A stretch of 64,000 bases of DNA from Nitrospirota bacterium. GTDB taxonomy: Bacteria > Nitrospirota > Thermodesulfovibrionia > UBA6902. The stretch is from contig JACRPZ010000068.1 of NCBI GenBank assembly GCA_016222905.1, forward strand, positions 1 through 64,000. The letters run 5' to 3'. Below the pieces are notes generated by a model. The model worked only from the letters and a program-made list of their open reading frames with translations. It was not told the origin of the DNA and made no database searches. Below are positions 3,759 to 42,326 of the stretch, piece after piece; position 1 is the first letter of the stretch; each line of letters opens with the position of its first letter. The translations under genes and the position numbers were made by a program.

Positions 3759-4004
3759 TTACCTTACCTCCCTTTTCTTTTTCGCAGCCTCTACTCCAAG
3801 CACGGTCCAGAAATCTCCTGTAAAAGAACCGTGGATAAACGAAAAGGCAAATGCCGCAGCTATCGGTAAAAACGCATATGCGCCGCCGCGGCCAAAATAG
3901 TTGTTAAGAAAATCCTGATTTAAAAGAAGCGCTGCGTACATACCGGCTGATATAATGCCCATGAATATCATCTTCACATAGGGTTTTTTCTTTTTCTCTG
4001 ACAT
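3759..4004 (-). CDS. Small two-helix membrane protein of the TSUP operon
   Basis: An 81-residue protein with a Lys-rich N-terminus, two hydrophobic stretches (about 12-29 and 42-60) and a basic C-terminal tail (AAKKKREV). GGAGG precedes the ATG. I recognise no named family. Its position directly upstream of and 1 nt from the TSUP permease suggests an accessory subunit or assembly partner; the unrelated DUF1634 membrane protein holds the equivalent place beside the second TSUP gene at 60121. This role is inferred from context only. Confidence 0.75.
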   Translation of the reverse strand: MSEKKKKPYVKMIFMGIISAGMYAALLLNQDFLNNYFGRGGAYAFLPIAAAFAFSFIHGSFTGDFWTVLGVEAAKKKREVR

Positions 4005-4031
4005 TGTTCCTCCATTCGTATTATCGTTAGA

Positions 4032-4226
4032 TTATTTGCTTCCTGCTGCTGAATTGACCGCGATCTTTGTTACATAACTGCTGCCTGATTTTCTGCTGAT
4101 CTTTACGGGACGGGCTTCTTCTTCCCGCATAATCTGTTTTGCAGTCTCAAACTCCCCGGCTTCGGCAAATGCCGTGGCAGCCATCGCATTCTCAAATTTC
4201 TTGAATATACTTTTAATCGTTTTCAT
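4032..4226 (-). CDS. Small protein sharing the AFAEAG segment of the neighbouring Usp-like protein
   Basis: A 64-residue protein with a good ribosome site (AAAGGAGG, 7 nt before ATG). Residues about 11-36 (core MAATAFAEAGEFETAKQIM) match an internal segment of the adjacent Usp-like protein (core MAAVAFAEAGDTETVKKLM) at roughly 15 of 24 positions. The rest is basic and predicted soluble. It lies 27 nt from both neighbours in a tightly spaced operon. It may be a cut-down duplicate of the helical insert of its neighbour that now acts as a partner or regulator; no function is known to me. Confidence 0.72.
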   Translation of the reverse strand: MKTIKSIFKKFENAMAATAFAEAGEFETAKQIMREEEARPVKISRKSGSSYVTKIAVNSAAGSK

Positions 4227-4253
4227 CTTGCTTCCTCCTTTATTAACCTGTCT

Positions 4254-4739
4254 CTATGCTCCCGCCTTTACAGGCGCTGACATAGCAACGATAGGTTTTG
4301 TAATGTTTTTGAGTAATTTTTTAAAATCAATTCCCTTTTTATCGGCTGAGAGATTTGGGCTTAGAAGGACCATATCAATGTACGGCCTGTTTTTAAGGAA
4401 CTCCTTTATTGCAGTTATCGTGTCATCAAAGGCTGTCTGATGAACGAGCGACAGGGAATTTTTCCCGCATATCTCAGTAAATTCCTTGATCTTCTTTTCC
4501 GCAATCTTTTTGATGCTCTCTTCCTGCTCATTCATCAGCTTCTTAACTGTCTCAGTATCTCCAGCCTCTGCAAACGCGACCGCGGCCATAACATCTTCAA
4601 AGGTATTCTTTGCATGCCTGCTGTAAACCATCAATACCGCAATACCGGCATTAAGTGTCTTGGCAAGCTCGACTGCGTAGGCAAATCCGTTATCGGAGTC
4701 TTCACCCCCTTTTGTTACAAATAAGATCTTCTCTTGCAT
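4254..4739 (-). CDS. Universal stress protein-like, single domain with helical insert
   Basis: About 161 residues. The chosen ATG at 4739 has AGGAGG 6-7 nt upstream (4744-4749), whereas the in-frame ATG ten codons earlier has none. The fold signature is Usp-like: KILFVTKGGEDSDNGFAYA at the start, a VLMVYSR strand, and DMVLLSPN followed by a late strand KPIVAMSAP. The classic G-x2-G-x9-G(S/T) ATP loop is not visible, so nucleotide binding is doubtful. An insert with VMAAVAFAEAGDTE is shared with the downstream small protein. It is the first gene of the operon that ends with the tandem Usp. Confidence 0.8.
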   Translation of the reverse strand: MQEKILFVTKGGEDSDNGFAYAVELAKTLNAGIAVLMVYSRHAKNTFEDVMAAVAFAEAGDTETVKKLMNEQEESIKKIAEKKIKEFTEICGKNSLSLVHQTAFDDTITAIKEFLKNRPYIDMVLLSPNLSADKKGIDFKKLLKNITKPIVAMSAPVKAGA

Positions 4740-4967
4740 CTGCTGCCTCCTTGATTTAAACTTCTGCATAGTTAATTACAAGAAGCGTGCAAGTCTGTAA
4801 CTTATTGGAATAAAAGGAAAAAGACTTTAAGGCTGGCTAAATTATTGTTTCAAATATAAACAGTGGTGAACGATTTGAGAGGATAATTGGTTTAAAAAGG
4901 GAGTAGGCCTGATCCCAAATAGTCGGGATTACAATGTGGCATTAAAATAACGCCCCCGGCTTCGCCA

Positions 4968-4990
4968 CCCCCTCTTAATTTAAGAGGGGG
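4968..4990. repeat. Palindrome CCCCCTCTTAA-T-TTAAGAGGGGG (terminator-like)
   Basis: An 11-bp perfect inverted repeat with a 1-nt centre lies 17 nt beyond the stop of the antiporter gene. It could terminate that transcript on the minus strand, but no clear T run follows. The flanks (CGCCCCCGGCTTCGCCA and GAAGGGGGAG) resemble the C/G-rich palindromes at 26791-26860 and inside cobC, so it is more likely one of a dispersed family. The remaining part of 4740-5007 shows nothing else I can name. Confidence 0.6.
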
Positions 4991-5007
4991 AAGGGGGAGT
5001 TACTTTT

Positions 5008-6204
5008 TTAATCTTCTTTTCTAATAACAAACCTCAACACAAGTGGCGCAAAGAGCGTTGTCAGGGCAACAACAAAGACTATTACCGCATAAATCATGTC
5101 ATCAAAAATCTTGCTTCTCTTCCCGACCTCTGCAAATATCAGGCCTACCTCTCCTCTTGGAACCATTGCTATGCCTGTCGAGAGCTTTGTCATAAAGCCG
5201 CCCTTGACCCAGACCCCGCTTATCATCTTTGCGATAACCGCTCCAAAGGTAAGGAGTCCAGCTGTCTGCCAGAAGACGGGAGACGAAAAATCAATAACGC
5301 TTAAGTTGATTGACACCCCTACAATCACAAAAAATACAGGTACAAAGAGGTCGATTATGGGTTTCATATTCTCCTCGATCTTTTCTGCCAGACCGTGGCT
5401 GTAATGGTCTATGGTTGCACCGAGGGGAAGGAAAAATCTTCTTGCAAGCGCAATCCCTGCAGCAAATGAGCCGAGTATTTCAGGCGCGCCTACTTTATGG
5501 GAAATAACCGCGAGTCCAAGAATTAATGAAATGATAATTGTGGGCACCATGCCTTTTGTCCTGCTGTTGGACGAGAGTTTTGAGATCAACGGAACAAAAA
5601 GCTTAGTGATTACAGGGGCAAGCAGCAGAAAGACCATAATAAACCCAAGCACCTTCGCGGCGTTTATGACATTTACCTCTCCTTTTACTGCAAAATCATA
5701 TAATACGGCAAGAATAACCACTCCTATAATATCATCAAGCACAGCCGCTCCCAAGACGATCTTCGCGGTCTTTGTCTGGTGCATCTTAAGGTCAACAAGT
5801 ACCCTTACAGTTATTCCTATGCTTGTGGCCACAAGCGTTCCGCCGATAAACAGAGAAACCACAAACGGCATATGAAATATGTGATTGCTTATCCAGAAGC
5901 CGATTAATGCGGGAGCTACAACTCCTGTAACAGCAACGAGAATTGACTGCCCTCCGACATTTACAATCTGCCCTACATCTGTCTCAAGCCCCACCTCAAA
6001 AAGAAGCAGTAAAATCCCTATCTCGGCAAGAAGGTGAAATGTAGCGTCCGGCGTTATTAAGCCTAAAACGCTCGGCCCGATTATTATGCCTGCTATTACC
6101 TCTCCCAATACAGCGGGAAGCTTCAAATATGCAAAAACCTCTGCAAAGAGTTTTGCTGAGAGAAGGACTATAAGCAGTTTAAAGAAAAAATCAGATACAT
6201 CCAT
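5008..6204 (-). CDS. Cation/proton antiporter, CPA2 (KefB/NapA-like) membrane domain
   Basis: About 398 residues with 12-13 hydrophobic segments spanning a whole Na_H_Exchanger domain. Recognisable pieces are KLPAVLGEVIAGIIIGPS, ILLLLFEVGLETD, LGAAVLDDIIGVVILA (the paired acidic residues of the ion site) and VPRGEVGLIFAEVG near the C-terminus. No TrkA-N or TrkA-C regulatory domain follows, so this is the bare exchanger form. The start at 6204 (MDVSDFFFK) is favoured by AAAGGAGG at 6223-6216; the longer reading adds 16 charged residues with no ribosome site. It likely exchanges Na+ or K+ for protons across the inner membrane. Confidence 0.88.
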   Translation of the reverse strand: MDVSDFFFKLLIVLLSAKLFAEVFAYLKLPAVLGEVIAGIIIGPSVLGLITPDATFHLLAEIGILLLLFEVGLETDVGQIVNVGGQSILVAVTGVVAPALIGFWISNHIFHMPFVVSLFIGGTLVATSIGITVRVLVDLKMHQTKTAKIVLGAAVLDDIIGVVILAVLYDFAVKGEVNVINAAKVLGFIMVFLLLAPVITKLFVPLISKLSSNSRTKGMVPTIIISLILGLAVISHKVGAPEILGSFAAGIALARRFFLPLGATIDHYSHGLAEKIEENMKPIIDLFVPVFFVIVGVSINLSVIDFSSPVFWQTAGLLTFGAVIAKMISGVWVKGGFMTKLSTGIAMVPRGEVGLIFAEVGKRSKIFDDMIYAVIVFVVALTTLFAPLVLRFVIRKED

Positions 6205-6246
6205 TCTTGCGCCATCCTCCTTTCTTTTATAAGATGACCTGCCTTG

Positions 6247-6285
6247 AAACATTGTACCACTTATAAAGCCAGACTTTCTCCTTAT
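6247..6285. repeat. Dispersed repeat, copy 1 (partner at 11163-11200)
   Basis: AAACATTGTACCACTT, then a variable 3-5 nt, then AGCC(A/G)GACTTTCTCCTTAT. The same sequence, differing at a few positions, occurs at 11163-11200. Both copies sit 40-100 nt upstream of the start codon of a minus-strand gene (the antiporter here, a sensor kinase there). They could be promoter-carrying ends of a mobile sequence; TACAAT on the minus strand is a possible -10. Confidence 0.6.
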
Positions 6286-6323
6286 TCTTCACAAATATCG
6301 GCTGGGATCAATTGTATTTGGTC

Positions 6324-6392
6324 GTCATTCCCGTGCAAACGGGAATCCAGTTTTTTTAATATGATCTGGATACCCGCTTTCGCGGGCATGAC
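6324..6392. repeat. 69-bp inverted-repeat element (REP/MITE-like)
   Basis: Left arm GTCATTCCCG...CGGGAATCCAG (6324-6350) and right arm CTGGATACCCG...CGGGCATGAC (6366-6392) are imperfect reverse complements, and each arm is itself a small hairpin (CCCGTGCAAACGGG and CCCGCTTTCGCGGG). This is a common type of palindromic intergenic repeat. The surrounding gene-free stretch 6205-6614 otherwise holds only the 6247-6285 repeat and the upstream region of the TPR gene. Confidence 0.75.
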
Positions 6393-6614
6393 AATCTCTT
6401 TCGTAAGAATGTGGAATAAAATTCATCAGATAACGTCAAGCCATTTTCTCCATTGACCACACGTTTAAATTTATGCTACTTTTACTTAGCCGTTCAGTTA
6501 ACTGGTTCCCACTTGTTCCTCCACGCATTCAATCGTGATATAATGATGCTGAGTATGACCAGTGACATGCCTGCAAAAGGGGGCAAAAAGTTAATGAGCG
6601 CGCTGAAGATTTAA

Positions 6615-29163: not shown

Positions 29164-29385
29164 ATGCGCATAATAGATATTCCACAAATTGAGAAATTAA
29201 GCATCCCTGAAAAGATTCTTCTTGTCGAAGATATGTGGGATAGCATATCTTCCGAGGAATCTGCTGTCCCTATCCCTGAGAGCCACATGATGGAATTGGA
29301 CAGAAGGCTTGCTAGGTATAAGTCCAGTCCTGGAGGACTTTTATCTCTGGATGAGCTTCGAGCAAAAATAGAATCAAGAAAATGA
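29164..29385 (+). CDS. Addiction-module antitoxin (unstable antitoxin family, RelB-like)
   Basis: 73 residues, acidic, helical. The pattern LSIPEKILLVEDMWDSI followed by IPESHMMELDRRLARYKSSP matches the PF09720-type antitoxin (L...E.LLL.EDLWDSI....E...ELDRRL). AGGAGG precedes the ATG. It is followed by its toxin with a 4-nt ATGA overlap. Confidence 0.88.
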   Translation: MRIIDIPQIEKLSIPEKILLVEDMWDSISSEESAVPIPESHMMELDRRLARYKSSPGGLLSLDELRAKIESRK

Positions 29386-29693
29386 CGTATATCCTGCGGT
29401 TCCTTCCAGAAGTTGAAGAAGATCTCATCAACGGTTATGTTTGGTATGAATCAAAATCCAGAGGGCTCGGTGAAGACTTTCTTCGTATGTTCTATGCCTA
29501 TGCAAATGAAATCCTATGGAATCCCTTGCGTTACCCGAAAGTTTATCAGGACTTTCGGCGGCGTTTGCTCAGGCGGTTCCCTTATGCTATCTATTTTGAA
29601 ATTGAGAATGACCAGATTATTGTATTTGGGCTTTTTCATTGTGCGCGCAACCCACAGGCCATAAATGCAGAACTCAAAAACAGAGAAAAATAG
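29382..29693 (+). CDS. RelE/ParE-family toxin
   Basis: 103 residues. The RelE/ParE fold is clear: LRFLPEVEEDLINGYVWYES, FLRMFYAYANEILWNPLRYP, and the core strands RRLLRRFPYAIYFEIENDQI, VFGLFHCARNP. It either cleaves translating mRNA or inhibits gyrase; the family cannot be split by eye. It overlaps its antitoxin gene by 4 nt. No duplicated flanks are visible around this pair, unlike the brnTA module. Confidence 0.9.
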   Translation: MTYILRFLPEVEEDLINGYVWYESKSRGLGEDFLRMFYAYANEILWNPLRYPKVYQDFRRRLLRRFPYAIYFEIENDQIIVFGLFHCARNPQAINAELKNREK

Positions 29694-32631: not shown

Positions 32632-34236
32632 TTATAATGCCTCTTTGTACACGACAAATTCATTTGGGTTCAACGCTTGTCTTAGGAATTTCCTCATATC
32701 AATAACAAAAACATTGCTGTCTTTTGGTAATTGCCAATTAGGCTGATCAATAAAACTTATCGGCTCAACCTGGATATCTGAATTTATCCCGAGTTCATAT
32801 AATGCCAGTCTTACCATAAAAGTAGAACCCACATCTCCTAATGAGGACAGAACGCCAAACTCATAGAGAGAATGTTTATCAGGTTTTATTACAAAAACAC
32901 ATGAAGCTTTTGACAGATTGGAAGCACCGTATTCCTGAATAATATTTTTTATATACTTTAATTCTTTTGTATGAAGATCGGAAAAATATTTATCAACATT
33001 ATGATTGGCGAGAAAAGTAACAATTACAGTCAGGGTTATAAGTCCAATTGATATTATTTTATTTTGCGGGTTTGCTGAAAAATTAAAAGCAGATTTAAAA
33101 ATATCAGCAATATTTATCAAGCTCCAATAAAGCAGGAGAAGTAAAATTATCTCAAGTGCAATCAGGTAACGATGAAGAGGTACTAATTGATTAAGATTGA
33201 CAGCTAAGATATTTGGCAAAAAGCTTAAAGGTATAAGAGGCAGAATAATGAAATGTCTCCATAAGAAAATCCATCTTTTTTTCTTTGTTATTATCTGAAA
33301 GACTGCATGTCCAAAACCGTATAACATGCCGGATACAATAAGAATGCTAACAAATAATGCTACTCTTTTGGCTGGAAAAATATTCCATAAGTTTAGTGCG
33401 CCATAAAGCGGATAATTTATAAACCATATTATCCTCTCATAGATTTCGCCCCGGTTAATAAAAGCGCCTCTGTAGGAAAGCCCGGCGTTCAATTGCAAAC
33501 CAATGATTTTTGTAATGCCCATATAAATTAACATAGAAGCAAAACCGGCAGAGAAGTAAATGGTAAAAAACAATAACCTTTTTTTTGTAAAATTCTCATC
33601 TTTTATTATAAGAGGAGTTACAGCCATTGCCCAATATATCATCGCAGTTGGCTGATAAATATTTAAGGAAATTATGAATAGAATCATAGCGATCAAAACA
33701 CTAATTGTTATATGTGCTGTATTGTTTTGTTTATCTTCTCTAAATACAGCCTTGAACAATATAAGAGCGGATAATGCCGACAGCAGCACACTAAAAACAA
33801 AAATAACTGTGTAAACCATGCTGACATATGTTTGTATGGGAGGCAATGTGCAAATCAGGATACCGAGCAGGAAAGCATGGTCGGTTCTGAATCTGTTTAT
33901 CTTAAAGATGAGAAACATCACATAAGCCAATAATCCTGTGCCAATGACTCCTATTAGACGAGCCGTGTTAGCAGCTTCGATAGATCGCAACGCATTAATA
34001 TATTTATTAAATATAAGATAAGTATATAATGTTTCTAACGGCCTCCCCTCCCACACTATTTCACGTAAATTATCAATATATGATTGACTATTTACCGTTT
34101 TCGCCTTCCTTACCCATACGTAGCCATAATCCTCCGCAGATAAATAGTGACCTCGGGTCACAGGCGCATAGGTCAGAAATAAAATTATTATAAAAAGAAG
34201 TAAAATAGCAGAAGAGAGCAATATATTAGTTTTCAT
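32632..34236 (-). CDS. Polytopic membrane protein, function unknown (glycosyltransferase-like topology)
   Basis: 534 residues with about 12 hydrophobic segments and a C-terminal soluble part of about 110 residues (from KYFSDLHTKELKYIKNIIQE). An N-terminal external loop (YAPVTRGHYLSAEDYGYVW) follows the first helix, as in GT-C fold sugar transferases and O-antigen glucosyltransferases, where an acidic pair in this loop is catalytic (here Glu-Asp in SAEDYG). That makes a lipid-linked sugar transferase plausible, but I cannot name a family. It lies at the end of an AT-rich minus-strand group of acyl-metabolism and acyltransferase genes. Confidence 0.7.
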   Translation of the reverse strand: MKTNILLSSAILLLFIIILFLTYAPVTRGHYLSAEDYGYVWVRKAKTVNSQSYIDNLREIVWEGRPLETLYTYLIFNKYINALRSIEAANTARLIGVIGTGLLAYVMFLIFKINRFRTDHAFLLGILICTLPPIQTYVSMVYTVIFVFSVLLSALSALILFKAVFREDKQNNTAHITISVLIAMILFIISLNIYQPTAMIYWAMAVTPLIIKDENFTKKRLLFFTIYFSAGFASMLIYMGITKIIGLQLNAGLSYRGAFINRGEIYERIIWFINYPLYGALNLWNIFPAKRVALFVSILIVSGMLYGFGHAVFQIITKKKRWIFLWRHFIILPLIPLSFLPNILAVNLNQLVPLHRYLIALEIILLLLLYWSLINIADIFKSAFNFSANPQNKIISIGLITLTVIVTFLANHNVDKYFSDLHTKELKYIKNIIQEYGASNLSKASCVFVIKPDKHSLYEFGVLSSLGDVGSTFMVRLALYELGINSDIQVEPISFIDQPNWQLPKDSNVFVIDMRKFLRQALNPNEFVVYKEAL

Positions 34237-34357: not shown

Positions 34358-35455
34358 TTAAGAATAAGTGTAGAAACCTTTTCCCGTTTTCCTGCCTAAC
34401 AATGCCTCACTCTCCATCTCCTCTAAAAGGGCTGAGAGTTTATATTTATTCGGCATAGCTTCATGCAGGGTATCCATGATTTTATTAAAAACATCGATCC
34501 CGATCAAATCCAGCAGTTTAAAAGGTCCTATAGGATGTTTCAGTCCTAATTCTACGGCATTGTCGATGTCCTCTTTAGTTGCCAACTCGTCTTCCAGAAT
34601 TTGAACAGCTTCATTCAGAAAAGTCATGAGAAGCCTGTTCACGATAAAGGCAGGGCTATTCTTAACAATTACAGGTGTCTTTTGAAGAGATCTGGCCGTC
34701 TGCCGGGTATATTCTATAGCTCTCTGATCAGTTTTTGCGCCGCAGACTATTTCTACCAGACGCATCTTGGAAACAGGATTAAAAAAATGCATCCCTATGA
34801 CCCTCTCGGGGTGATTTAGAATCCCGGATATCTCGTCTATGGACAGGGATGAAGTATTTGTGGCTAACACTGTGTTTTCACTGCAAACAGCTTCAAGGTC
34901 TTTAAAAACATCACGCTTTACATTTATATCTTCGATAACCGCTTCGATAACAATATCAACACTGGCAAGGTCAGACATATTTTGAGTGGGCTTAATGGAC
35001 GACAGCATTACGTCAAGCTCTTTTTTGCGTATTACATGCTTAGACAATGCGCTTCTTATTCTGTTCATGGCATTATCTAAAGAGCTAATGCTTCTGCCTT
35101 TCAAAATTACATTACATCCCGACATAAGAGCAATTTGCGCTATCCCGACAGCGGTAACTCCGGTTCCTACGATGCCGATTTGCGGCAGATGAATTTTATT
35201 TAGACTTTCGTCGAACTTATTGCCTATTTCAAATATGTTAAAGCTTTTGCGTAAGGATAGCCTTTTATTCTCATCTTCCAGCAGCAAGACATAATAAGGC
35301 ACGTCATAATGCCCCTCTGAAGGATTACGCACCTCCGTCACTCCTTTTACAATATATGCGATAGGACTATATTCTCTTGTCTTAACCTTGCACTTCACGC
35401 ATAAATCCACATGAAAGCGCCAGATAAAACCACATTTTTCACAAATGCATGCCAT
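34358..35455 (-). CDS. DUF35 (Zn-ribbon/OB) fused to 3-hydroxyacyl-CoA dehydrogenase
   Basis: 365 residues in two parts. Residues 1-80 are a DUF35-like unit: zinc cysteines 5, 8, 19 and 22 (CEKC...CVKC) and an OB-like region. Such proteins partner acyl-CoA thiolases and HMG-CoA synthase, mainly in archaea. Residues 90-365 are a 3-hydroxybutyryl-CoA-type dehydrogenase: NAD site IGIVGTGVTAVGIAQ, ATNTSSLSIDEIS, the catalytic His in GMHFFNPVSKMRLVEIV, and the C-terminal domain with LGLKHPIGPFKLLDLIGID. It would reduce an acetoacetyl-like CoA ester to the 3-hydroxyacyl-CoA. The thiolase gene ends 2 nt upstream, so the two are coupled and the DUF35 part probably docks the thiolase. The fusion is unusual to my knowledge. 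Confidence 0.88.
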   Translation of the reverse strand: MACICEKCGFIWRFHVDLCVKCKVKTREYSPIAYIVKGVTEVRNPSEGHYDVPYYVLLLEDENKRLSLRKSFNIFEIGNKFDESLNKIHLPQIGIVGTGVTAVGIAQIALMSGCNVILKGRSISSLDNAMNRIRSALSKHVIRKKELDVMLSSIKPTQNMSDLASVDIVIEAVIEDINVKRDVFKDLEAVCSENTVLATNTSSLSIDEISGILNHPERVIGMHFFNPVSKMRLVEIVCGAKTDQRAIEYTRQTARSLQKTPVIVKNSPAFIVNRLLMTFLNEAVQILEDELATKEDIDNAVELGLKHPIGPFKLLDLIGIDVFNKIMDTLHEAMPNKYKLSALLEEMESEALLGRKTGKGFYTYS

Positions 35456-35457
35456 AG

Positions 35458-36588
35458 CTAATCTTTCCGGAAAATATGAATTACTGCTGTTCCGCCTACC
35501 CCGCCTACATTATGTGTAAGACCAATACTGGCATTTTTCACCTGCCGATTACCTGCCTCTGAGCGCAGTTGTTTAACAATCTCAAAGACTTGCGCTAAAC
35601 CCGAAGCTCCAATTGGATGGCCGTCTGCTTTTAGTCCGCCATCGGTATTCACTGGAATATCTCCATTAATTTTAGTTCTCCCTTCACGGACAAGATGCTT
35701 GCTTTCCCCGGGTTTGCAAATTCCGATGTCTTCCATCGCAATGATCTCTGCAATTGTGAAGCAATCATGCACCATAAAAATATCTATATCCTTTGGTGAT
35801 AAGTCAGCCTGTTTATAGGCATCCAGCACCGCAATCTTTACAGCCGGGAAAGATGTAATATCTTTAGTATTAGTTAAAGAGAGATTGCCTGTTGCGCATG
35901 ATGAAGCAATGACCTTAACATCCCGATCTCTTCTTTTGGTCTTAGAAACAACAACCGCACTGGCGCCATCGCTTAATGGAGCACAGTCATACAATCTTAA
36001 GGGAGAACACACTACTGGGGATCTAATGATTTTATTGATATCAATATCTGTATTATAAAAGTGAGCGAATTCATTCAAATTCGCATTTTCATGATTTTTA
36101 AGCGAAATAAATGCCAGATCATCAAGTTCTGTTCCGTAACGAAGCATATGCTGTTGAGCAATGAGCGCATAGGAAGCGGGGAAAATCAGTCCTTCTGCCT
36201 GGTCATGGAGCCTGTCAGCTGCCATTGCAATTGCACTTGTTGCTTTTACGGATTCTACGTTAAGTTTCTCCATTCCTACAACCATAACATTATTGAACCT
36301 GCTCAATGAGATCAATGCCTGATAAAGTGCAGCGCCGCCGCTTGCGCAAGCAGTTTCAATTCGAATAATAGGAATGTGGGAAACAGGCAGGATATCGGCA
36401 ATCAGTGCGTTGATATGGAGCTGGCTCTGGGTTGGGCCTCCGCAGAAATTCCCTATAAATATAGCGTCAAGTTGTCCAACTTCCATCTCTGCATCACTCA
36501 ACGCTGCAGAGATAGCAGCGTATGATAATTCCGGCAGAGATTGTCTTAAAACGCCGAATTTCGTTCTGCCTATACCTGTAATATACAT
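35458..36588 (-). CDS. Thiolase-superfamily enzyme (SCP2/archaeal acetoacetyl-CoA thiolase-like)
   Basis: 376 residues. The nucleophile is Cys81 in IETACASGGAALYQA. The conserved C-terminal parts are GGLKADGHPIGASGLAQV and LTHNVGGVGGTAV. The last motif has His and no second Cys, as in SCP2-type and archaeal thiolases that work with a DUF35 partner. Dense IDAIFIGNF and VHDCFTIAEI segments also match this group. It should condense or cleave short acyl-CoA units (acetyl-CoA to acetoacetyl-CoA). Next to the DUF35-dehydrogenase fusion it forms a two-enzyme route to a 3-hydroxyacyl-CoA. Confidence 0.88.
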   Translation of the reverse strand: MYITGIGRTKFGVLRQSLPELSYAAISAALSDAEMEVGQLDAIFIGNFCGGPTQSQLHINALIADILPVSHIPIIRIETACASGGAALYQALISLSRFNNVMVVGMEKLNVESVKATSAIAMAADRLHDQAEGLIFPASYALIAQQHMLRYGTELDDLAFISLKNHENANLNEFAHFYNTDIDINKIIRSPVVCSPLRLYDCAPLSDGASAVVVSKTKRRDRDVKVIASSCATGNLSLTNTKDITSFPAVKIAVLDAYKQADLSPKDIDIFMVHDCFTIAEIIAMEDIGICKPGESKHLVREGRTKINGDIPVNTDGGLKADGHPIGASGLAQVFEIVKQLRSEAGNRQVKNASIGLTHNVGGVGGTAVIHIFRKD

Positions 36589-36723
36589 AAACTATTTAAA
36601 GCCTTAGACACTTAATTTATATCATCTGGTCTGTAAATATTTTACAATATAAATGGAAATATATCTTGAATCGTTTTCCTAACTAAAGTAACAAACGCGG
36701 TGTAAATGATTTATTTATACAGA

Positions 36724-37491
36724 TTACGATCCTTTGTGGGATTGTTTATTGTAGAAAACATCTATATCATTATGGAGAATATCCTTAAGGTAACTTATCC
36801 AGATAGAATTTCCATTAGCATTTAAGTGAGCGCCTTTGCCATTATGATAACCGGCTGCAAGATTGCCTGTTTCATCAATAAGATTCTGTCCGGAGTCAAT
36901 GAAATAACAATTTGAAAAATCATTACACAATTTCTGTAAAGATGAATTAAGTGAACTGATTCTAATATTCATGCCGGTAAATTTTACGTCTGCTCTCTCA
37001 TCAACTGGCAACACAGAACTGAAAAGAATAGGTATGTTATAAGGAAGCGCTTCAATTATTAATTTATAATTCCTGATGATCTCCTCATTTGATCTCTGCC
37101 ACAAATCGTTATGGCCAACAGAAATTATCACAGCGTTTGCTCTATTTAAAGATTTATAGACAGGAAGTCTTTTTAACACGCCGTCAGTTGTATCACCTCC
37201 AATCCCATAGTTAACGGATTTATCAATAATTGCAGAGACACAAAGCCTTTCAAAGTGACTGTCGCCCAAGAAAATAACTGCGCCTGAAGGCACGCTTTGG
37301 TCAATAATTGAATGGTAGGTTAATGTTCGAGTATAATGATCTGCTGTATCAATTTCATTTGGTTTTTGCAAGCCAAGTTTTAAGTAAACACGGTTAATTA
37401 AACCGGGTTTGACTAAAATCAAAGCTATAAAAAAATGCAGTAAAATAACATAGACAGTACCGATCTTTATTTTCATTTTTGGAGCAAGCAT
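36724..37491 (-). CDS. SGNH/GDSL-family hydrolase, membrane-anchored
   Basis: About 255 residues from the ATG at 37491 (1 nt after the acyltransferase stop); the longer frame overlaps that gene by 62 nt and is less likely. One N-terminal helix (VYVILLHFFIALILV) anchors it. The SGNH blocks are FLGDSHFE (Ser), NYGIGGDT (Gly), ISVGHNDLW (Asn) and KGAHLNANG (His). Members are esterases or acyl transferases acting on glycans and lipids. Its coupling to an HGSNAT-like acyltransferase suggests it edits or transfers acyl groups on a surface polymer. Confidence 0.82.
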   Translation of the reverse strand: MLAPKMKIKIGTVYVILLHFFIALILVKPGLINRVYLKLGLQKPNEIDTADHYTRTLTYHSIIDQSVPSGAVIFLGDSHFERLCVSAIIDKSVNYGIGGDTTDGVLKRLPVYKSLNRANAVIISVGHNDLWQRSNEEIIRNYKLIIEALPYNIPILFSSVLPVDERADVKFTGMNIRISSLNSSLQKLCNDFSNCYFIDSGQNLIDETGNLAAGYHNGKGAHLNANGNSIWISYLKDILHNDIDVFYNKQSHKGS

Positions 37492-37492
37492 T

Positions 37493-38614
37493 TTACAGCT
37501 TAATAAGAATTTTTCGCTTAAACAGCCAGTAGCATAAATACCATTCAAAACCAATTGCTAATATAGAGCTAACTCCATCTATAATTCCCGTGCTTTGGAA
37601 AAACCGTCCCAGAATTCCTTCAGAAAAAATAGCCGTGAATCCGTTTAACCACTTCCTTCCAATAGTTGCACTGAACAAATAAATGAACATGGGATTCATG
37701 CCAACAACGGTAAACAGAATAGTCCATTTTTTATAGTTCATAATATCAATCATCCAATATAAAACAGCATATGTTAAGAAACAAAAACCACCGGAAACGA
37801 TCATGAATGAGCTTGTGCTGATGTGCTTGTTGATTGGGACTATGCCGGTCCAATCAATTCCATAGCCCATGACTACCCCTATTAGTCCAAGCGATGTAAT
37901 TATTGAAAGTTTTCTGTTCTGACTGAGAGAACTCAACAGTATTTTTCCTGTCAATACCCCCCATATTGCATGTACGGTAGTAGGTATGGCGTTAATGGCG
38001 ACCCATCCGTCATGATTGGTTTTTCCCATTAACACTAAATCCATAAATGTTCCAAGATTATGGTGCTTAATATAAGGCTGGGCAAAGCCGTCTATTGAAA
38101 CCAAACGATATAACATATCATATATAATCAGCAAGCCAAATGAGATTATCAGTTGTGTTGAATTTCTGAACTTGAAGATTAGAAAAGTTATAAGGATATT
38201 AAAAGAAAGAACTACCAATATATTCCATAATTCAAAGGTTAATTGGTTATTATGTTCAATTGCCAAAATAAGTCCAAGTAGAAACAGGATTGAGCAACGA
38301 TAAAGAATATGTCTGAAGGTCTGGCTCCAGTCGGCCCCCTGGGCCAATCTTTTACTCAAAGACAAAGCCATTGCAATGCCAAGAACAAATGTAAAATACG
38401 GTTGTCCAAGATCCCAGAAATACAGACCGTTCCACTCATGATGTTGCAACTGCGTTACCAATGCCCCCACCACGGGCTTACCCGAGAATATCCCTATTAG
38501 CACATAATTGAGATGTGAGATTTCGGTAAGCATCATCATCATAGCAAATCCACGGAATGCATCAAGCGACAGTAAACGTTGCTTGTTTAAGGTAAGGTTC
38601 TCTTTAGTGTCCAT
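37493..38614 (-). CDS. Membrane acyltransferase, HGSNAT/DUF5009-like
   Basis: 373 residues, about 10 hydrophobic segments. The N-terminal motif RLLSLDAFRGFAMMMML and the loop with YFTFVLGIAMALSLSKR match the family of heparan-alpha-glucosaminide N-acetyltransferase-like proteins, which transfer acetyl groups from cytosolic acetyl-CoA across a membrane to sugars. A possible active His lies in QLQHHEWNGLYFWDLGQP. It heads a run of minus-strand genes: SGNH hydrolase (1 nt apart), thiolase and DUF35-dehydrogenase. It may use an acyl-CoA from these enzymes; this is an inference. Confidence 0.82.
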   Translation of the reverse strand: MDTKENLTLNKQRLLSLDAFRGFAMMMMLTEISHLNYVLIGIFSGKPVVGALVTQLQHHEWNGLYFWDLGQPYFTFVLGIAMALSLSKRLAQGADWSQTFRHILYRCSILFLLGLILAIEHNNQLTFELWNILVVLSFNILITFLIFKFRNSTQLIISFGLLIIYDMLYRLVSIDGFAQPYIKHHNLGTFMDLVLMGKTNHDGWVAINAIPTTVHAIWGVLTGKILLSSLSQNRKLSIITSLGLIGVVMGYGIDWTGIVPINKHISTSSFMIVSGGFCFLTYAVLYWMIDIMNYKKWTILFTVVGMNPMFIYLFSATIGRKWLNGFTAIFSEGILGRFFQSTGIIDGVSSILAIGFEWYLCYWLFKRKILIKL

Positions 38615-38777: not shown

Positions 38778-39827
38778 ATGAAAACTTTTTATAGAGGCAT
38801 GAAAATTCTGTTAACCGGCGCCGCGGGAACCATCGGGAAAGAACTGGTAAGGCAGATGGTCTCTTTTAAGCCTGCGGAACTGCGGCTGATGGACAACAAT
38901 GAATCGGAAATGTTTTTCCTTATGGAAGAATACAGAAATAAAAACGTCTTCTGTTTTCTTGGCGATGTAAGAGACAGAGACAAATTAGAAATGCTTTCCA
39001 AAGATATTGATATCATCATTCATTCTGCCGCCTTCAAGCATGTATATATCACTGAATATAACCCCTTTGATGTGGTACAGACTAATATAATAGGTGTCGA
39101 GAATATTATAAGAGCTGCAACTGCCCGCAATGTAAAGCAGGTTCTTTTTACAAGCAGTGACAAGGCAGTAAATCCTACAAATGTTATGGGTACCTCAAAG
39201 CTTATGGGCGAAAAGCTGATAACCGCGGCTAATGCTGTAAAAAAAGACAGCCAGACCATTTTCAGCAGCACTAGGTTTGGCAATGTCCTTGGATCAAGAG
39301 GATCGGTAGTGCCTCTATTTATGAAACAGATCAAGAACGGCGGTCCTGTAACGATAACTGATAAAAGAATGTCGCGTTTCGTTATGACGATAGAAGAAGC
39401 GGCAAGATTAGTGTTGAAATCAGTGCTGATCTCCAAAGGCGGCGAAGTTTTTGTTACAAAGATGCCGGTAGTCAGGATACCAGATCTTGCTGAAGTGATG
39501 ATAAAGGTGCTTGCCCCAAAATATGGCTGCGCGCGTTCGGATATAAAGACTGTAGAAATAGGGGCAAAAGCTGGCGAAAAACTTTACGAAGAGCTTATGA
39601 GCGATGAAGAAGTTCACCGCTCTTTGGAATTAAAGGATATGTTTGTTGTCACTCCCGCCTTAAAATCAATTTACCAGTCTATAAAATATGAATATCCTGA
39701 CATTGTTTCAAGTCGGATTAAGAACTCTTATGTTTCAGAGAATGAGAAAGCGATGGATAAAGATAAACTTGAAGAGTATCTCCTTAAAAACAGAGTCCTT
39801 GAAAAGATGGAAGAGTCCCATGTCTAA
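38778..39827 (+). CDS. NDP-sugar 4,6-dehydratase/epimerase, CapD/PseB-like
   Basis: 349 residues, cytoplasmic SDR-type enzyme. The NAD site is LLTGAAGTIGKELVRQM. The family's Met-x3-Lys catalytic pair lies in NPTNVMGTSKLMGEKL, as in the membrane-free UDP-GlcNAc 4,6-dehydratase group. Further motifs are FGNVLGSRGSVVPLF and MSRFVMTIEEAARLV. It converts UDP-GlcNAc or a related sugar to a 4-keto-6-deoxy intermediate, the first step to amino-dideoxy sugars of surface glycans. A DegT-type aminotransferase that could act next begins at 63485. It is divergent from the acyltransferase operon. Confidence 0.88.
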   Translation: MKTFYRGMKILLTGAAGTIGKELVRQMVSFKPAELRLMDNNESEMFFLMEEYRNKNVFCFLGDVRDRDKLEMLSKDIDIIIHSAAFKHVYITEYNPFDVVQTNIIGVENIIRAATARNVKQVLFTSSDKAVNPTNVMGTSKLMGEKLITAANAVKKDSQTIFSSTRFGNVLGSRGSVVPLFMKQIKNGGPVTITDKRMSRFVMTIEEAARLVLKSVLISKGGEVFVTKMPVVRIPDLAEVMIKVLAPKYGCARSDIKTVEIGAKAGEKLYEELMSDEEVHRSLELKDMFVVTPALKSIYQSIKYEYPDIVSSRIKNSYVSENEKAMDKDKLEEYLLKNRVLEKMEESHV

Positions 39828-39871: not shown

Positions 39872-40774
39872 TTATTTTTCAAAGCAGTATTTCTCCGCAA
39901 GCGGCGCAAATAGCCTTCTGCCTTTTTCATTTAAATGATCCGAATTTATAAAAAAAGAGGCGTCATATTTTAAAGGAATTTGTCCGAGGTCAACATATTT
40001 AACTTCATATAATGCAGCCATTTTTTTAAATTCCGCTTCAGATGCGATAAAATCATTATCGTTGAGAATCAATTCCCGGTATTCAATTGAAACAGGCATT
40101 CTCAATAGACACACCGCTGCATTTTTATCTTTCAAGAAGGTTAAAATCTTATAGTATGATTTAAAGTTCTGTGTTTCCTGAAAGTTTCTAACCGGGCGTT
40201 GTGTTTCAATGCGTTTTCGCGTCATCTCTATTCTATTCTCCCCAGATGTTTTTTCCCACATATTCTCTTTCACCTTTTGCTCGGGTTTATAATGTATCCA
40301 CTTAGACATATCCGCCAGGTTCCTGCTGACAAGTTTTTCAAAAGCATAAATCATAAAAGGAAATTTCACCGTATTGAACTTGAAATATTCCTTAAACCCC
40401 AAATCCCCTCTTTCTACTCTATTCTCCGCCAACATTTGAGGAGCCGCTATGATTATTACTCTGTTTGGTTTTATGTGTCTGTAATATTCCTTGAGTATAA
40501 TTTCCATTGCTTCGACCGGCATTCCGTTATACGATAAGTCTTTGAAGAGAGCGTCATTTTCCGGGAATCCAAACTTAAACTGAGAATCGCCGATAATCAC
40601 ATCCTGTTTTCCCGACTCATAAACCGACACGGCAATTTGAGAAAGTTCGTCATTTGGAATAACATAAATCCTCAGAAATGTTTCCGCAATAAAAACATAC
40701 GCGATAATTCCGAGAATTATACAAACTATATATGTTCTGTTAGAAAAACCGGTAAATAAATTCTTTATATCCAT
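39872..40774 (-). CDS. DltD/SGNH-like membrane-anchored partner of MBOAT
   Basis: 300 residues. One N-terminal helix (TYIVCIILGIIAYVFIAETF) is followed by an extracytoplasmic SGNH-like domain: IIGDSQFKFGFP at the nucleophile position, ISYNGMP-like glycine block (DLSYNGMPVEAM) and NSDHLNEKGRRLF with the Asp-x-x-His-type catalytic end. Such proteins accept an acyl group from an MBOAT and pass it to a polysaccharide. Its start lies within the last 35 nt of the MBOAT gene, so the two are translationally coupled. Confidence 0.8.
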   Translation of the reverse strand: MDIKNLFTGFSNRTYIVCIILGIIAYVFIAETFLRIYVIPNDELSQIAVSVYESGKQDVIIGDSQFKFGFPENDALFKDLSYNGMPVEAMEIILKEYYRHIKPNRVIIIAAPQMLAENRVERGDLGFKEYFKFNTVKFPFMIYAFEKLVSRNLADMSKWIHYKPEQKVKENMWEKTSGENRIEMTRKRIETQRPVRNFQETQNFKSYYKILTFLKDKNAAVCLLRMPVSIEYRELILNDNDFIASEAEFKKMAALYEVKYVDLGQIPLKYDASFFINSDHLNEKGRRLFAPLAEKYCFEK

Positions 40775-42326
40775 AACTCATCATACGGTAAATTGAAATT
40801 ATTACTAAAGACAGCGTAAACAGAAACCATGTAAAATTTGGCGTCCACCTCGCAAAATTCCATCTCCATGCCTTGATCTCAACACGGTATATATCGAAGA
40901 CAGAGTGGTAATGAAGCATGATCTGCTGGGTATTCGGAGCGCACCACGATAAAGCAAGTAAAAAAAACAGGCTTAATATTTCCGCCTTGCCACGAAGAAA
41001 TTTAAGAGGATGAAATTCCCATCCTATATTGGCGAGAAAGTTCTTTATTGGTACTATCTGATTAAGACCTTCCAGATAGGATTCAGGTATGACAAATCCG
41101 TTTAATCCCGCCATCCCCTTCAATATATTTTCTGCTCCGTTGAGAGTTTCAGCCCTGAAAAGCACCCATGCAAAGACAACCGCAGTGAAAGTGACTGCCT
41201 GTGATAATCTGTGCCCCAGCCTACTGGAGGCATTTGAATCATAACCCAATGCCTGACGCACTGTACGCCAGATATTGTTTATGATCAGGTAAATACCATG
41301 CATGGCGCCCCATGCAACAAATGTCCATCCGGCGCCATGCCATAAACCTCCAAGGAACATTACAATCATAAGATTTAAGTAACGCCTGGCACTGCCTTTA
41401 CGATTGCCTCCAAGCGGAATATACAAATAATCCCGTAGAAAACGGGAGAGCGTGATGTGCCACCGCCTCCAGAATTCAATAATGTTCTTCGCCTTATAAG
41501 GCGAATGGAAGTTGAGAGGCAAATTTATGCCGAACATTCTGCCCAAACCGATTGCCATGTCTGAATAACCTGAAAAATCAAAGTATATCTGAAATGTGTA
41601 TCCAAGCGCGCCGCCCCAAGCCTCCAAAAAAGAAAGCATAATATTTTGCTCAGCCGCTTTAAACACCGGGGCAGCATAAACAGCTACCCCATCTGCTAAA
41701 ATAACTTTCTTAAATAACCCGATAAAAAAGATCGTTAATCCGACCGCAATATTTTCACTGCTAAGCTTATAAGTGGAATTTTTTTCAAATTGCGGCATCA
41801 TTTCTTTATGGTGGACGATAGGGCCGGAGATTAATTGCGGAAAGAAAGTCACAAACAAACAGTAATGGAGGAAATCGTGTTCATTAACTCTGCCTTCGTA
41901 TGCATCTGCCAGATAGGCAATCTGTTGAAACGTGAAGAAGGAGATCGCCAGCGGAAGAATAATTGTATTCAGATGTATAACAGGCTGTTCAAGCAAGCTG
42001 TTAATATTTTTAATAAAAAAATTGGCGTATTTGAAATAGCCCAGCAGGGAAAGATTTAAAGCTATGCCTGATGCTACAATTATTTTTCGGCTAATTTTAG
42101 AGAGACTCAACTGTTTAGATAGTGTAGTGCCAATGACATAGTTAAAAGCTATCGAGGCGGTTATTAACCAAAAATACGCAGGATTCCACCAACTGTAATA
42201 AAACAGGGATGATGCCACAAGCCATAAAACAGCAAGCCTTTTACGGCCATATTTGCCAATACAGGAGAACCCTATTACAGTTATTGGCAAAAACAGAAAA
42301 ATAAATTCGAATGAATTAAACAGCAT
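40740..42326 (-). CDS. MBOAT-family O-acyltransferase (DltB/AlgI-like)
   Basis: 528 residues, 11-13 hydrophobic segments. Family motifs are DFSGYSDMAIGLGRMFGI, EFWRRWHITLSRFLRDYLY, IPLGGNRKG and the catalytic His region LGGLWHGAGWTFVAWG. It moves acyl groups from a cytosolic carrier across the inner membrane for O-acylation of extracellular polysaccharide. The downstream SGNH partner completes an AlgI/AlgJ-like system. No alginate or teichoic acid genes are present, so the acceptor is probably a local surface glycan. Confidence 0.93.
   Translation of the reverse strand: MLFNSFEFIFLFLPITVIGFSCIGKYGRKRLAVLWLVASSLFYYSWWNPAYFWLITASIAFNYVIGTTLSKQLSLSKISRKIIVASGIALNLSLLGYFKYANFFIKNINSLLEQPVIHLNTIILPLAISFFTFQQIAYLADAYEGRVNEHDFLHYCLFVTFFPQLISGPIVHHKEMMPQFEKNSTYKLSSENIAVGLTIFFIGLFKKVILADGVAVYAAPVFKAAEQNIMLSFLEAWGGALGYTFQIYFDFSGYSDMAIGLGRMFGINLPLNFHSPYKAKNIIEFWRRWHITLSRFLRDYLYIPLGGNRKGSARRYLNLMIVMFLGGLWHGAGWTFVAWGAMHGIYLIINNIWRTVRQALGYDSNASSRLGHRLSQAVTFTAVVFAWVLFRAETLNGAENILKGMAGLNGFVIPESYLEGLNQIVPIKNFLANIGWEFHPLKFLRGKAEILSLFFLLALSWCAPNTQQIMLHYHSVFDIYRVEIKAWRWNFARWTPNFTWFLFTLSLVIISIYRMMSYGYKEFIYRFF

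Follow-up and report, generated by a model that had tools for sequence, protein, structure and literature searches.

The DNA analysed here, a stretch of 64,000 nucleotides from the Nitrospirota contig JACRPZ010000068.1 (hereafter the window), carries a minus-strand gene pair that encodes a thiolase and a fusion of a probable DUF35 domain to a 3-hydroxybutyryl-coenzyme A (CoA) dehydrogenase. Read along the minus strand, the genes follow in the order NagX-like acyltransferase (38614-37493), SGNH protein, thiolase (36588-35458), fusion (35455-34358) and membrane protein (34236-32632); the coordinates and gene order given in a first-pass annotation made from the letters of the window are correct. 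The 2-nt gap between thiolase and fusion reported there is also correct: the thiolase stop codon ends at 35458 and the fusion ATG lies at 35455, preceded by GGAAAG, which resembles a ribosome-binding site. The pair is part of a low-GC (guanine plus cytosine) island of sugar and acyl-transfer genes, with GC fractions of 0.34-0.43 in the island genes versus ∼0.47 for the recQ and btu genes on either side. The features of the pair are:

35458..36588, minus strand: SCP2/archaeal-type acetoacetyl-CoA thiolase, 376 aa (NCBIfam, PDB match, motifs)
35192..35455, minus strand: probable DUF35 domain, a C4 zinc ribbon plus truncated OB-like beta region, fusion residues 1-88 (Cys spacing, alignment, profile, AlphaFold2/Foldseek)
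34358..35191, minus strand: 3-hydroxybutyryl-CoA dehydrogenase, C-terminal domain of the fusion, residues 89-365 (Pfam, PRK05808, PDB, alignment, AlphaFold2)

The thiolase has the full-length fold of the SCP2/archaeal enzymes and retains the nucleophilic Cys81 (within ACASGG), HDCF at residues 274-277 and the GHP-GA motif (GHPIGASG at 323). It matched the NCBIfam models PRK06064 (4e-125) and METTL, an acetyl-CoA acetyltransferase model (M. thermolithotrophicus; 1e-111); the scores fall below the equivalog cut-offs, so its exact substrate is presumed. The top PDB match was 6esq_A (1.2e-75), the thiolase of a thiolase/DUF35/3-hydroxy-3-methylglutaryl-CoA (HMG-CoA) synthase complex, followed by others including BbsB. 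The NCBIfam and PDB matches bear out the earlier assignment to the DUF35-dependent type, and on its sequence we classify the protein as a predicted archaeal acetoacetyl-CoA thiolase, of the class that pairs with DUF35 proteins.

The C-terminal part of the fusion proved to be a complete 3-hydroxyacyl-CoA dehydrogenase, as had been proposed, with matches to PF02737 (8e-53) and PF00725 (5e-28) and with the catalytic residues Ser202, His223, Glu235, and Asn273 all retained in the alignment. It matched PRK05808 at 9.5e-86 and PDB entry 4r1n at 5e-67, and its AlphaFold2 model matched 6acq and 4kue; in a model of the whole fusion the dehydrogenase was well predicted and the N-terminus was of low confidence. 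Enzymes of this family yield the S form of 3-hydroxybutyryl-CoA. The dinucleotide site contains GTGVTA (G-x-G-x-x-A) and KGRS, the latter where NAD enzymes carry an acidic residue; replacement of D by G-R-S together with GxGxxA is a lead that hints at a preference for NADPH. We take the nucleotide site to resemble that of C. kluyveri Hbd1, again as a lead only. Hbd1 is NADPH-linked (PMC9393629).

Residues 1-88 of the fusion contain Cys 5, 8, 19, and 22, as the first-pass annotation stated, and also Cys 3. The four form a C4 zinc ribbon with the spacing C-x2-C-x10-C-x2-C, which is canonical for DUF35 zinc fingers (PMC12329534). In an alignment with 10-16 DUF35 domains the segment tracks their blocks up to the 'EIG' region, and hhalign against a DUF35 profile gave P = 3e-5; the score of the OB part alone was reached by 2 of 300 shuffles. 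AlphaFold2, run on residues 1-88 alone as a single sequence without an alignment, produced a weak, beta-rich model (predicted local distance difference test score 51). The top three Foldseek matches of this model among 350,542 PDB chains were DUF35 chains (3irb, and 6htj twice; E at least 0.13), and MucABC and ChsH2 chains were also within the first 21. We conclude that the N-terminus very probably descends from DUF35. The trimmed DUF35 end makes it unlikely that the fusion arose by accident from an error in sequencing.

An unfused version of the pair was found in haloarchaea, whose plasmids carry the nearest thiolases found (12 loci inspected, 38-40% identity). An annotated OB-fold/zinc-ribbon gene comes right after the thiolase in 11 of the 12 loci; in the twelfth, from Salinirubellus sp. 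SYNS196 (5143-5533 of its locus), the DUF35 gene is unannotated and its reading frame appears to be broken. A 3-hydroxyacyl-CoA dehydrogenase gene is next after DUF35 in two of them (Natrinema salinisoli and Haloterrigena alkaliphila; 3986-6521 of each locus). These trios match the window pair in their three parts and in the order of these, with a thiolase 38% and a dehydrogenase 36% identical, but keep DUF35 and dehydrogenase as separate genes in a context of fatty-acid/acyl-CoA metabolism. The collinear counterpart agrees with the earlier reading of the locus, and the window fusion corresponds to what joining genes two and three of the haloarchaeal trio would give. The trios could also suit testing of the same complex in unfused form.

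Two kinds of characterized complexes resemble this arrangement. The 6ESQ complex of Methanothermococcus thermolithotrophicus contains the same thiolase type and, as proposed here, places DUF35 between the thiolase and an enzyme that uses acetoacetyl-CoA; in the window that next enzyme is a reductase rather than an HMG-CoA synthase, the probable DUF35 is fused and shortened, and the host is a bacterium. DUF35 is joined to a neighboring pathway enzyme in the steroid hydratase-aldolase complexes Shy/Sal and ChsH2/Ltp2, where, in likeness to what is proposed for the window fusion, the fused DUF35 docks a thiolase-fold partner (PMC12329534). These differ from the window in that DUF35 is fused to a hydratase, the partner is an aldolase, and the pathway is catabolic.

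The metabolic setting was examined in the genome that holds the window (2.84 Mb, 90 contigs, rated 100% complete). It contains no crotonase, no PhaC (polyhydroxybutyrate [PHB] synthase), no other 3-hydroxyacyl-CoA dehydrogenase, and no other full-length thiolase, the remaining thiolase matches being short and ketosynthase-like; lacking these, it has no route to a beta-oxidation cycle or to PHB storage. Ordinary beta-oxidation was accordingly rejected, as was PHB synthesis, for which the S stereochemistry of the dehydrogenase family is a second obstacle. With these routes missing, an acyl donor is the likeliest role for the product, and the absences are consistent with the dedicated 3-hydroxyacyl-CoA synthesis that the first-pass annotation envisaged. 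Stand-alone DUF35 genes are likewise missing from the genome; a host zinc-ribbon protein was considered in their place and rejected, the best candidate being unrelated.

We propose that the two genes would specify a thiolase/DUF35/dehydrogenase unit whose DUF35 scaffold is fused to the dehydrogenase. The thiolase would convert two acetyl-CoA to acetoacetyl-CoA, and the zinc-ribbon/OB domain would dock the dehydrogenase on the thiolase, such that reduction pulls the unfavorable condensation toward (S)-3-hydroxybutyryl-CoA or another 3-hydroxyacyl-CoA of similarly short chain. The upstream NagX/SGNH pair would then use this donor to place 3-hydroxybutyryl groups onto an extracytoplasmic glycan. 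Docking of the N-terminal domain on the thiolase in working form is probable, and the reductive direction with acetyl-CoA and 3-hydroxybutyryl as substrate and product is probable to the same degree; use of the product on a glycan, suggested by gene position, falls slightly short of an even chance. Taken as a whole, a docked thiolase-dehydrogenase unit that supplies an acyl donor, plausibly for a glycan, is the best explanation, and we regard it as evenly poised between right and wrong.

The two genes upstream of the pair are:

37493..38614, minus strand: NagX/HGSNAT-like (TmAT superfamily) membrane acyltransferase (NCBIfam NagX 4e-38, DxxR motif)
36724..37491, minus strand: SGNH/GDSL protein with one N-terminal membrane anchor and GDSH and GHND motifs (PF13472 1.4e-14)

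The earlier identification of an HGSNAT-like membrane acyltransferase was confirmed by the NagX match, which lies under the curated equivalog cut-off, and by the DxxR motif (DAFR at residue 18), located in the first transmembrane helix as in the TmAT family. The SGNH hydrolase identity also held, but the start of the gene is more likely the ATG at 37491 than the TTG at 37554: the ATG lies 1 nt past the acyltransferase stop, and the TTG overlaps the acyltransferase. The layout suggests that the two genes are translationally coupled. The SGNH protein also matches PHROG 14008 (9e-35), a phage family of unknown function whose members may be SGNH-type partners in surface-sugar acylation. TmAT enzymes present CoA-bound acyl groups across the membrane, and SGNH domains hand them to sugars (PMC12423673). 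The OafB, HGSNAT, and NagX systems have a DxxR membrane acyltransferase beside an SGNH protein, as in the window; known TmAT members use mostly acetyl-CoA, whereas hydroxybutyryl-CoA would be the conjectured donor here.

Contrary to the first-pass annotation, which knew of no locus dedicated to hydroxybutyryl decoration, the Pseudomonas viosamine island (vioS, vioR, acp, vioB) is one, providing dedicated genes for 3-hydroxybutyryl on a surface glycan much like the role proposed here (PMC3927599). It makes an N-(3-hydroxy-1-oxobutyl) sugar with ketoacyl synthase (KAS) III, FabG-type, and acyl carrier protein (ACP) components (PMC3927599). Unlike the window, it is ACP-linked, employs KAS III and FabG-type enzymes, and transfers the N-acyl group to a nucleotide sugar in the cytoplasm. 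What is new is the CoA-based, scaffold-fused enzyme pair; a dedicated locus as an idea was already known. The most specific version of our proposal, in which the DUF35-dehydrogenase, docked on its thiolase, turns channeled acetoacetyl-CoA into (S)-3-hydroxybutyryl-CoA, a CoA-linked donor dedicated to a surface-glycan membrane acyltransferase, and so forms a CoA counterpart of the ACP-based viosamine route, is tentative and rather doubtful. If true, the principle of a DUF35 scaffold would reach a reductive step, here with the scaffold as part of the enzyme itself. Two genes would then form a compact source of 3-hydroxybutyryl-CoA, and the supply of acyl groups besides acetyl to TmAT acyltransferases would be suggested.

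Two sets of observations weigh against this proposal, the first concerning the link to the acyltransferase and the second the N-terminal domain. NagX/HGSNAT enzymes are known with acetyl-CoA. The pair lies downstream of the SGNH gene at a distance of 135 nt, and its co-transcription with the acyltransferase is possible. The closest acyltransferase homologues, in two relatives (53% and 50% identity), have SGNH and sugar genes nearby, and both genomes have neither thiolase nor fusion. Searches of 150 relatives and of 231 genomes of the class did not turn up this thiolase, and 396 phylum genomes gave only distant matches (27-34% identity). A second fusion of DUF35 to a 3-hydroxyacyl-CoA dehydrogenase was found neither in these 150 relatives and 396 phylum genomes nor among the best 80 loci from GTDB genomes, nor in plasmids or viral contigs; of the plasmid matches that appeared to reach over the N-terminus, one was dropped as a spurious extension within a 694-aa FadB-like gene. 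The fusion pair next to acyltransferase genes is a single observation so far. The first-pass annotation had named a lone case without acyltransferase association in relatives as grounds for giving up the idea, and for the genetic link this is largely what was found. Its interpretation is left standing on the thiolase type, the DUF35-compatible N-terminus, the haloarchaeal counterpart and the absence of alternative pathway genes, but not on acyltransferase association in relatives. By its distribution, the thiolase/fusion pair seems to have entered a variable island by horizontal transfer.

These findings suit an account in which the same enzymes serve metabolism, the product or its free acid supporting acetoacetate or 3-hydroxybutyrate use or redox balance, and the pair came into the glycan island by chance horizontal transfer. 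The thiolase is missing in all sampled relatives and was thus probably acquired, no acyltransferase link is conserved, and the haloarchaeal counterparts have a metabolic setting of genes for acyl-CoA dehydrogenase, AMP-ligase, and enoyl-CoA hydratase. However, the host lacks crotonase, PhaC, and a second thiolase, no CoA-transferase, ligase, or transporter gene adjoins the pair, and SGNH/NagX genes and a GT-C-like gene flank it on its own strand. We consider the metabolic account unlikely.

The second set bears on an account in which residues 1-88 are a zinc ribbon unrelated to DUF35, or a DUF35 that has decayed and no longer docks, with thiolase and dehydrogenase acting as ordinary separate enzymes. 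Pfam returned no match for residues 1-88, neither PF12172 nor PF01796, and the domain is therefore classed as DUF35-like rather than as a Pfam member. Unrelated zinc ribbons scored equally against the DUF35 profile, and 2-3 of 300 shuffles that kept the cysteines or the ribbon matched its score, such that beyond the cysteines it is modestly above shuffles. By alignment, the domain has neither the docking helix found at the N-terminus of DUF35 nor its final barrel (OB) strand, and no in-frame start upstream of the fusion ATG could add the helix. In CtShy this helix contributes to the interface with the thiolase fold (PMC12329534); docking here may accordingly be weaker or different. The claim of a DUF35 unit thus survives as probable, not certain: Cys spacing and weak profile and fold matches are compatible with it, and Pfam is silent. 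Against a non-docking domain, and despite its low AlphaFold2 confidence, stand the exact DUF35 cysteine spacing, the beta pattern and block order, the three leading Foldseek matches, the position directly after a DUF35-type thiolase, and the lack of another genome-encoded DUF35 that could serve that thiolase; we judge this account improbable. Equally improbable is a pair that handles another acyl group (a branched or longer 3-hydroxyacyl) or works degradatively, since both proteins best match acetoacetyl-CoA and 3-hydroxybutyryl-CoA enzymes and other beta-oxidation genes are absent, even though SCP2-type thiolases span many substrates, including that of the benzoylsuccinyl-CoA thiolase BbsB, a weaker match.

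Other genes annotated in the island are:

32632..34236, minus strand: multi-pass membrane protein, ∼11 transmembrane segments, GT-C/Gtr-like (hydropathy)
38778..39827, plus strand: UDP-sugar 4,6-dehydratase of PseB/CapD type, divergent from the acyltransferase (PF02719 5e-99, PseB 1.8e-84)
39872..42326, minus strand: MBOAT (DltB-like) protein and DltD-like partner (PF03062 5.5e-35, weak DltD match)

The membrane protein at 32632..34236 had no Pfam, NCBIfam, or PHROG match. A PseB-type neighbor 83% identical to that of the window lies near the acyltransferase homologue in one relative (G021). By recQ, a small ORF (open reading frame) of ParE/RelE-like toxin type is present at 29382-29693 on the plus strand, with no obvious antitoxin among the listed ORFs by eye. 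The MBOAT/DltD-like genes form a second acyl-transfer pair in the island, and in another relative (G031) ∼4 kb separate an MBOAT relative (50%) from a distant NagX-like gene.

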